Assembly: GCF_002514735.1 (NCBI RefSeq)
Contig: NZ_NBWU01000001.1
Coordinates: forward strand, 1,054,001 to 1,118,000
DNA: 64,000 bases
Reading direction: 5' to 3'
Source: Sediminicola luteus
GTDB taxonomy: Bacteria; Bacteroidota; Bacteroidia; Flavobacteriales; Flavobacteriaceae
The notes under the pieces are model-generated. The model saw nothing but the letters and a program-made list of their open reading frames with translations, ran no database searches and was not told where the DNA came from. Both the position numbers and the translations under genes were made by a program. This document shows, piece after piece, positions 2,123 to 4,284 of the stretch (within the stretch, counting starts at the first letter, position 1; each line of letters starts with the position of its first letter).

Positions 2123-2761
2123 TTGGCAAACCCTTTTGGCATCATAGAACGCTACGACCGCCAGTTCGAATACGCTGGCGTCTTGTTCCAATTGGTTATT
2201 GCCTACAAGTATTTTCAGTTGTGGTCGGCCCCACAACCCCATCAGGCCGAAATCATACTCTCCATGGCCCTGCTCATGATATTTGAGTTCGTTATGGTAC
2301 ATTCCGGGGTGTTTATGGCGGTAATGCCCAAAAAGTGGTGCCTGTTCGTCTTTATACCATTTTACGGGGTGTTCGCTTTGGTGTTTACCTTGGCGATTCC
2401 GAACAACTATATCATTTTGGTCGCCTATTTGTTGGTGGTCATCAATCGGATGCGTTTCGCATTTTCCGATGTGCCCCGTGCCCTTAGAATACGTACCATT
2501 ATCATGTCGGTTGCCGCTGCTCTAGTCTATTTTGTGCTTATTTTTGTGGTGCTGATGGCCTCGAACCTTATTCCGGAATTAGGGCTCACCCCATCGTTCT
2601 TAACATCATCAGGATATAACGATATGGAAAAAGGTTCGGGCGAATTTGTAGACTATCCGCATCTCACCCTGTGCTTTGGGGCCCTGTATTATACCCTTTC
2701 CGCCTTGGTGGAATTCAAATTGATGCGGACTGATTTTTCGAAAAAATTCAATACATTCTGA
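2123..2761 (+). CDS. Multi-pass membrane protein of unknown function
   Basis: This 212-residue protein has about five hydrophobic segments (roughly residues 36-65, 70-88, 93-107, 125-150 and 178-195) and no family I can name with confidence. A large soluble loop (~150-178) precedes the last segment. It lies 13 bp after hemE on the same strand, so it is probably co-transcribed with the haem genes. The start is uncertain: the only near candidate is TTG at 2123, which would give MANPFGIIERYD, and no Shine-Dalgarno sequence is visible. Its stop codon TGA (2759-2761) overlaps the first REP palindrome of the element inserted in front of hemF. That is consistent with the element having landed directly at the end of this gene. 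Confidence 0.7.
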   Translation: MANPFGIIERYDRQFEYAGVLFQLVIAYKYFQLWSAPQPHQAEIILSMALLMIFEFVMVHSGVFMAVMPKKWCLFVFIPFYGVFALVFTLAIPNNYIILVAYLLVVINRMRFAFSDVPRALRIRTIIMSVAAALVYFVLIFVVLMASNLIPELGLTPSFLTSSGYNDMEKGSGEFVDYPHLTLCFGALYYTLSALVEFKLMRTDFSKKFNTF

Positions 2762-2790
2762 CCTGACAGGTTTTCGAAACCTGTAAGGTC
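2760..2790. repeat. REP-like palindrome, left flank of the RAYT element
   Basis: This is an almost perfect 31-bp palindrome with arms GACCTGACAGGTTT and AAACCTGTAAGGTC. A near-identical copy sits at 3340-3370. The pair brackets the transposase-like part of the following gene, the arrangement known for REP-associated tyrosine transposases. Confidence 0.85.
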
Positions 2791-2799
2791 TCATGCCAA

Positions 2800-4284
2800 A
2801 TGATAAATGATGTTACCATGGATTTTTTGGAAAAAGGGTTTTGTTACCATATTTACAACCGAGGCATTAATGGTTGTAACATTTTCTCTGAACCAGAGAA
2901 CAAAACGTATTTTTTAAAATTGGCGAACAAACATTTGCAGGGTAAATGTAAATGGTTCGCCTACGCTTTACTTGATAACCACTTCCATTTTGCCATAGAA
3001 ATAGTTGGTGATGGTCGAATGGTTACCCAAGCCTTATCCAATCTATTCAATGCCTATGCCAAGGCGTATAACAAACGTTATCAAAGAACGGGTTCGTTGT
3101 TTGAAAGACCATTTAAGCGTAAACGTATTGAAACTGAAGAATACCTTAAAAACCTAATCCTATACATTCATTCGAACCCTGTAAACCACGGACTAGGTAT
3201 CGATGGCATGGCCATGGATACGTCCTACGGGCACTATTTAATCAATAAGACCGAATCAAATGTGCCAAAACTGGAAAAAGATACCGTTTTCGAGTACTTT
3301 GGCGGTCTTGAAAATTTCGTTATGTCGCACAATAATGTAGACCTGACAGGTTTTGAAAACCTTTCAGGTCAAACCCCATCCATAAAAGATCGTTTTTACG
3401 ATTATATCCAAAACCTTCAAGATCAAATCTGTGCCGGTTTGGAAACCTTGGATGGCCAAGCCCAATTTAAACAAGACCTTTGGGAGCGCCCTGGGGGCGG
3501 AGGTGGCCGTACCCGGGTTATCGAAAATGGTGCCGTTTTTGAAAAAGGTGGGGTCAATATTTCTGCCGTACATGGCGCCTTGCCCGAAAGTATGCAAAAG
3601 CACTTTGGGGTATCGGAGGCCGATTTTTTTGCCTGCGGACTCAGTTTGGTCATACATCCCAAAAACCCTATGGTGCCTACGGTACATGCCAACTGGCGCT
3701 ATTTTGAGATGTACGATGCCCAAGGCGATATAGTGGATAGTTGGTTCGGTGGCGGACAAGACCTTACCCCTTATTATCTATTTGAAGAAGATGCCCAACA
3801 TTTCCACAGCGTATGTAAAACAGCTTGCGATGCGCATAACCCTAGCTTTTACCCAAACTATAAAAAGCGATGCGATGAATACTTTCATAACACCCATAGA
3901 AATGAGGCCAGAGGTGTGGGCGGACTCTTTTTCGATTATCTAAAAGCCACGGAAAGCATGCAAATGACCAATTGGTATAATTTTGTAACCGAAGTCGGTG
4001 ATAGTTTTCTCGAAGCCTATGGCCCAATCGTAGCAAAACGTAAAACGCTCGAATATACGGCTGCCCAACGCGATTGGCAGGAAATTAGACGCGGTCGTTA
4101 TGTGGAGTTTAACCTCGTGCACGACAAGGGTACCTTGTTCGGTTTACGTACCAATGGCCGTATCGAAAGCATTCTTATGAGTTTACCACCCCATGTACAA
4201 TGGCACTACAACCATCAACCTGAGCCCGGAAGCCCAGAGGCCGAGTTGTTGTCCGTACTGCAACAACCACGGGAATGGGTATAG
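2800..4284 (+). CDS. hemF: REP-associated transposase domain fused to coproporphyrinogen III oxidase (HemF)
   Basis: Residues ~195-494 are aerobic coproporphyrinogen III oxidase, which converts coproporphyrinogen III to protoporphyrinogen IX using O2; VHANWRYFEMY and SWFGGGQDLTPYYL are family motifs. Residues ~7-180 are a TnpA_REP (RAYT, IS200-like Y1) transposase: FCYHIYNRG, an HUH-type NHFHFAI (H61, H63) and LYIHSNPVNHGL. The second REP palindrome is translated as VDLTGFENLSGQ between the domains. At the expected HemF start (family form M-K-D-K-F-Y) the codon is ATA (3382, I195), and the next Met is ~70 residues further in, so HemF must be read from the transposase start (ATG 2800 or, more like other RAYTs, ATG 2818). 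The reading frame is open throughout. Proteolytic separation of the two parts is possible but unproven. Confidence 0.9.
   Translation: MINDVTMDFLEKGFCYHIYNRGINGCNIFSEPENKTYFLKLANKHLQGKCKWFAYALLDNHFHFAIEIVGDGRMVTQALSNLFNAYAKAYNKRYQRTGSLFERPFKRKRIETEEYLKNLILYIHSNPVNHGLGIDGMAMDTSYGHYLINKTESNVPKLEKDTVFEYFGGLENFVMSHNNVDLTGFENLSGQTPSIKDRFYDYIQNLQDQICAGLETLDGQAQFKQDLWERPGGGGGRTRVIENGAVFEKGGVNISAVHGALPESMQKHFGVSEADFFACGLSLVIHPKNPMVPTVHANWRYFEMYDAQGDIVDSWFGGGQDLTPYYLFEEDAQHFHSVCKTACDAHNPSFYPNYKKRCDEYFHNTHRNEARGVGGLFFDYLKATESMQMTNWYNFVTEVGDSFLEAYGPIVAKRKTLEYTAAQRDWQEIRRGRYVEFNLVHDKGTLFGLRTNGRIESILMSLPPHVQWHYNHQPEPGSPEAELLSVLQQPREWV
3340..3370. repeat. REP-like palindrome, right flank, inside the fused gene
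   Basis: Arms GACCTGACAGGTTTT and AAAACCTTTCAGGTC are nearly identical to the copy at 2760-2790. Together they delimit an element of about 611 bp. The copy is in frame and carries no stop codon, so it joins the transposase to HemF. Confidence 0.85.

Follow-up and report, generated by a model that had tools for sequence, protein, structure and literature searches.

A RAYT frame continuous with hemF through a translated REP-like palindrome recurs in Flavobacteriaceae

We analysed a 64,000-nucleotide stretch of the Sediminicola luteus genome (hereafter the window) in which one open frame of 494 codons encodes a REP-associated tyrosine transposase (RAYT) followed by HemF, the oxygen-dependent coproporphyrinogen oxidase (Table 1). 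This agrees with the initial annotation, which had described a REP-flanked RAYT with an HUH motif that continues into HemF as a single 494-residue protein through a right-hand REP that is open in frame. The C-terminal half (amino acids 199-493) belongs to the HemF family, matching PF01218 with 451 bits against a cut-off of 31.8 and PRK05330 with 423 against 297. The N-terminal half (residues 12-132) matched the NCBIfam family REP_Tyr_transpos (NF047646) at E 9e-11, with bit scores of 41.8 for the fused protein and 44.2 for the RAYT part that both lie under the curated cut-off of 80; all 23 members of alignment A2 matched the same family at E <= 0.001. Pfam Y1_Tnp reached the window protein only at E 0.018, under its cut-off, which the relative at locus L077 clears (27.5 versus 23). 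The profile built from A2 found no match among PDB sequences at E 0.01, and a PHROGs search returned no useful match.

Table 1. Positions in the window of the fused frame, its parts and the palindromes that flank the RAYT
Feature	Position	Strand	Remarks
Left REP-like palindrome	2760..2790	.	5' end shares bases with the stop codon (2759-2761) of the preceding ORF
Whole fused RAYT-HemF ORF	2800..4284	+	ATG at 2800 to stop at 4284, 494 aa
RAYT part (Y1/HUH transposase) of the fused frame	2800..3339	+	H61-F62-H63 and Y122 retained
In-frame ATG, candidate separate HemF start	3322..3324	+	21 codons 5' of HemF Lys2
Right REP-like palindrome	3340..3370	.	in frame; its translation, DLTGFENLSG, forms the linker between the domains
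Codon at the HemF start position	3382..3384	+	ATA
HemF (oxygen-dependent coproporphyrinogen oxidase) half	3385..4284	+	codon 2 to stop

Both the HUH and the tyrosine motifs of a RAYT are present in the window protein, in the form NHFH and YIHSNP. In an alignment of 16 fused proteins, H63 and Y122 were found in all 16 and H61 in 15, the exception being locus L121, which has a Gln at this position. A structure predicted for the fused protein from 16 sequences (mean pLDDT 66.8) was compared with known structures by Foldseek; it points to a TnpA-REP fold through a match over 154 columns to PDB 4er8 (E 3.7e-5), the structure of a RAYT in complex with a REP hairpin. Nineteen coproporphyrinogen oxidase chains ranked above this entry, and the 4er8 match would fall on the N-terminal half of the fused protein. 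The two halves have a GC content of 0.374 (RAYT) and 0.473 (HemF) against a window mean of 0.402. The genome has a single hemF match, and its RAYT has no second match at E 1. HemF had initially been called essential, which is unsupported because HemN is encoded in the same genome as well (427 bits, cut-off 325).

The two REP-like 31-mers that flank the RAYT are 87% identical, and with at most three mismatches we counted 19 such sites genome-wide and none for a reversed-pattern control. The repeats are therefore both flanking and genome-recurrent, as is found for RAYT/TnpA-REP elements. REP pairs have been described in inverted orientation (PMC2817692); the orientation of the window pair is undefined because both repeats are near-perfect palindromes. 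A GTAG that fits the GT(A/G)G foot lies at 3337-3340 before the right palindrome and, by eye, is absent before the left one; among 15 testable fused loci the foot occurred in one, which is the window itself. In four fused proteins (L101, L118, L120 and L121), a loop of HemF has extra residues at one and the same place (columns 362-388 of alignment A1), and these may be translated repeats.

The architecture is not confined to S. luteus. In a sample of 397 genomes of the family, which we judged from named relatives to be Flavobacteriaceae, a RAYT match at E 1e-5 was present in 61 genomes and the RAYT-HemF fusion in 16. In genus g20, six of 12 genomes are fused. The best 80 RAYT loci of a collection of named genomes comprised 16 that were fused to HemF and 12 that were unfused with HemF on the same stretch; carriers include Winogradskyella species, Hanstruepera flava, Gelidibacter gilvus, Aestuariivivens insulae and two Aequorivita species. 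After removal of three duplicates from 37 (three of the 16 fused loci from the named collection were repeats), the database search for RAYT-HemF proteins that had been proposed with the initial annotation thus yielded 34 distinct fused loci. A sequencing or assembly artefact in the window genome is extremely improbable, and we rejected it since the same architecture is found in these 34 loci, which come from separate assemblies and include named strains. The open fused frame is likewise more than a chance continuity, given these loci and the low dN/dS of the RAYT half in g20 (see below). Outside Flavobacteriaceae, no full-length match was found among the matches listed for 395 genomes of the class, where a fusion is expected to rank at the top. 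Viral contigs gave 26 matches to patterns taken from HemF, none of which was confirmed, and 10 plasmid records hold RAYTs at 27-34% identity. Two further loci were seen in passing. In Maribacter aquimaris (L188), the frame of a hem-operon RAYT with long repeated linkers runs to the end of the contig, and HemF might lie beyond. At L155 (6605-9499), one of the 397 family genomes has another long frame, in which a distant RAYT is joined to a PIF1-like helicase that carries an HRDC domain and which exits the fetched stretch.

The hem operon is the common setting of these RAYTs. Of 85 RAYT entries, the 25 most like that of the window (itself included) all lie in the hem operon. They group as a single clade (100/98) to the exclusion of 32 other fetched RAYTs, none of which has hemD, hemE or hemF beside it on the fetched stretch. 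Among the 25, nine are not fused to HemF: the RAYT stops from -4 to 216 nt ahead of the hemF start in five, lies between hemE and hemF at a greater distance upstream in two, and lies between hemD and hemE in the last two. At L116 the RAYT stop and the hemF start overlap as ATGA and at L117 they are 5 nt apart, so that these two loci appear from their sequences to be states adjacent to fusion.

Empty sites, which the initial annotation had suggested seeking in sister strains, were recovered in three genus pairs in which a site with the element and a site without it could be aligned over both flanks. The inserts measured ~629-725 bp, and in two of the three pairs the insert lies immediately against the start codon and changes the final codons of the gene upstream. 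HemF at the empty site starts with ATG in two pairs and with TTG in one. An ATG in sisters together with a stop codon after the transposase had been named beforehand as a sign of a sequencing artefact; the sisters do have a start codon, and the transposase with its stop is absent from them. Duplicated hemF 5' ends were sought as a general mark of arrival, with one clear case (L164) in 60 loci and short matches in L079 and L095. The L164 sequence is a degraded duplicate of the hemF 5' end (74% over ~95 nt), ~626-723 nt upstream of HemF; it is preceded by a REP, lies upstream of the present RAYT and may be what an earlier arrival left behind.

Comparison of the two halves within genus g20 revealed that their divergence is uncoupled in both directions. 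For the three pairs formed by L077, L161 and L162, RAYT had a lower synonymous divergence (pS) than HemF (p 1e-4 to 2.5e-3). Of all 15 pairs, RAYT exceeded HemF in six (p < 0.05), with L165 a member of five of these, and six gave no difference; the tests are uncorrected and share sequences between pairs. In the three low pairs the divergence steps at HemF codon 1, and what arrived would therefore be the element with its linker rather than part of hemF. Recombination within hemF as the means of transferring the fusion, which we also considered, is unsupported in these pairs by the same jump. In the two L077 pairs HemE sided with HemF, with dS values of 0.72-0.88 versus 0.37-0.38 for RAYT.

Together with this uncoupling, phylogenetic analysis led us to reject a single fusion inherited with its hemF. 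On the HemF tree, which is weakly resolved (nine of 46 inner branches starred, bootstrap unsettled), the fused label requires 16 changes, at least seven of which are forced by starred branches, and a single clade of the 16 fused HemFs is rejected (AU p 4e-10). The initial annotation had treated the fusion as a single event; given its frequency in the family, in g20 and in the named collection, we consider it recurrent instead. Nine genera in the HemF tree have both states. In four of them fused and unfused HemFs group together with starred support, and in the other five HemF does not group by genus, with the grouping unrejected (AU p 0.15-0.37).

We then compared the codon at the HemF start position. 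The ATA reported there for the window was confirmed, at a position where most unfused relatives have ATG. The 34 fused loci have ATG (12), ATC (10), ATA (4), ACC (2), GTC (2) and TTT, CTC, TTG and GTG (one each), and the 39 unfused loci ATG (34), TTG (2) and other codons in three (L098, L110 and L174), each of which has an ATG at most nine codons upstream. A position without ATG, GTG or TTG is therefore found in 20 of 34 fused versus 3 of 39 unfused loci, a contrast that is not a clean test because the loci are related and partly hand-picked (the unfused set is a non-random one of genus sisters, odd frames, best matches and RAYT neighbours). The ATA at L110 was considered as a scar left after fusion and dropped, as no REP was seen and another ATG lies upstream. 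A change from ATG to ATA by point mutation, as initially proposed, is unproven: L161 and L162 have a linker in common that ends in the same ATC, with HemF halves that are more diverged, and the Ile codon may for this reason be the last codon of the element itself.

These codons bear on how HemF is made. From the reading frames, we infer that HemF is made as a fused RAYT-HemF protein. In L075 the stretch between codons -70 and +15 around HemF Lys2 is free of ATG, GTG and TTG, and in L076 there is just a TTG at -68; in these two loci the RAYT frame must therefore supply the HemF domain, save for initiation at a rarer codon. Hanstruepera flava NBU2984 (L177), whose protein is identical to that of L076, has ATC at the start position. 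The ATG in 12 and the GTG or TTG in two of the 34 fused loci mean that a separate HemF start may occur there. For S. luteus, the ATG at 3322, which the initial annotation does not mention, makes separate HemF initiation possible, and because of it the initial statement that RAYT translation drives HemF is best put conditionally for this genome.

A parallel case lies at the edge of the same window. HemD (2-1090) has an N-terminal DUF559 domain fused in frame, and the DUF559 part is bounded by 37-nt inverted repeats of 84% complementarity, the right one at 387-423 and the left one crossing the first base of the window. The right repeat is translated as part of the linker. DUF559 and HemD matches occurred together in nine of the 397 family genomes, in one frame in all nine, and by eye a palindrome of this kind is present in eight of the nine linkers. 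Two unrelated palindrome-bounded genes have hence been read into two nearby heme genes.

Taken together, these data make it probable that one lineage of RAYTs has inserted in front of hemF on repeated occasions, with a frame that runs on through the right REP and displaces the HemF start by its own. According to this model, one REP-RAYT lineage would be specialised for the hem operon of Flavobacteriaceae and would spread between species, landing directly before the hemF start codon. The RAYT frame would then read through the translated right REP into hemF, with HemF as the C-terminal half of a chimera and its own start replaced or lost in most cases. Movement of the RAYT would presumably proceed by single-strand HUH chemistry. 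A host that dropped the RAYT frame would lose HemF translation, and this lock-in may be what keeps the fusion, an idea that is weakened because HemN is present. More tentatively, we raise the possibility of a gene-start-specific element: the RAYT lineage would find the 5' ends of hem genes, swap the start codon for its own translated end and so become hard to lose, and the unrelated palindrome-bounded DUF559 gene would do likewise before hemD.

The same observations can be read in other ways. The RAYT could be an ancestral, family-wide resident of the hem operon that fused early, with many precise losses producing the present scatter. One RAYT clade at one operon and fused loci across many genera fit such a history, as does the fact that a sister relation of the two g157 RAYTs (L081 and L092) is unrejected (AU p 0.33). 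It fits poorly with the uncoupled divergence of RAYT and HemF in both directions inside g20, and the HemF grouping of L121, L106 and L122 is rejected for RAYT (AU p 0.018, for a group picked after viewing the trees). Moreover, a hand-made REP half-site pattern searched in the 300 nt upstream of hemF found sites in 16 of 21 fused loci and four of nine unfused RAYT neighbours and in none of 30 RAYT-less loci, with the reservation that it also misses five of the 21 fused loci. We therefore regard early fusion followed by loss as unlikely. A similarly low likelihood applies to the view that the frames are continuous only incidentally and that HemF is mainly translated separately, from an internal start or by coupling. 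The ATG retained in 12 of 34 fused loci, the ATGA overlap in L116 with the 5-nt spacing in L117, and the window ATG at 3322 are in line with it; L075 and L076, which have no near start codon, speak against it. So does the frame itself, since 16 of the 21 RAYTs whose ends lie inside hemF or at most 216 nt from it are fused where one third is expected for a random frame (p 7e-5, a test that ignores relatedness and the fact that the search began from a fusion).

A role of the chimera in the host is somewhat less improbable than these two, and still doubtful. The RAYT half would have been domesticated, for REP handling or for the regulation or placing of HemF, and be kept by selection. In g20 the RAYT with its linker has a dN/dS of 0.11-0.31 in 14 of 15 pairs (dS is saturated in the remaining one) compared with 0.046-0.082 for HemF in the 15 pairs, and the RAYT half is hence under purifying selection; the invariance of H63 and Y122 in the 16 fused proteins is likewise what a useful chimera would show. 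On the other hand, purifying selection is predicted equally for a selfish element, L121 lacks one of the HUH histidines, and the fusion is patchy, being absent from sister species of the same genus. Because of this patchiness, we favour selfish lock-in over host use. To our knowledge, the persistence of low-copy RAYTs is an open question. If the proposed repeated insertion is correct, a metabolic enzyme whose translation begins at the start of a RAYT would offer a concrete and testable answer to it, and the pairs with and without the element within genera make target choice, movement and cost measurable at the hemF locus.

Related proteins and arrangements have been described. A survey of TnpA-Y1 proteins set long proteins aside as 'gene fusions or annotation errors' and characterised its subclass 2.6 (RAYT group 5) from Bacteroidetes by NH[LIV]H and YIH[QN]NP, to which NHFH and YIHSNP of the window are near and not identical (PMC6006769). 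In the open-access literature searched, we found no report of a RAYT-HemF fusion and no paper that joins a RAYT with coproporphyrinogen or DUF559 with uroporphyrinogen-III synthase; in PMC2817692 the terms 'fused' and 'fusion' are absent. Fusions within the heme pathway are represented by HemC-HemD, which we presume to account for several HemD matches in frames of ~530 codons; the partners there are both metabolic enzymes and not mobile-DNA enzymes. Palindromic repeats translated within proteins are known from in-frame REPs and the Rickettsia palindromic elements (RPE) (PMC3733652), and REPs inside tnpA-REP genes from subclass 2.4 (PMC6006769). The right REP of the window resembles them in being a translated palindrome, but in those cases the repeat alone was inserted, whereas here it links a whole transposase to a gene. 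The element also resembles the REPtrons of RAYT/TnpA-REP, with which it shares the HUH and Tyr motifs, the flanking palindromes that recur in the genome, a single RAYT match in the genome and the predicted 4er8 fold. It differs from them in that its ORF extends across the right REP into the gene of a metabolic enzyme and in that the RAYT clade is tied to one operon.
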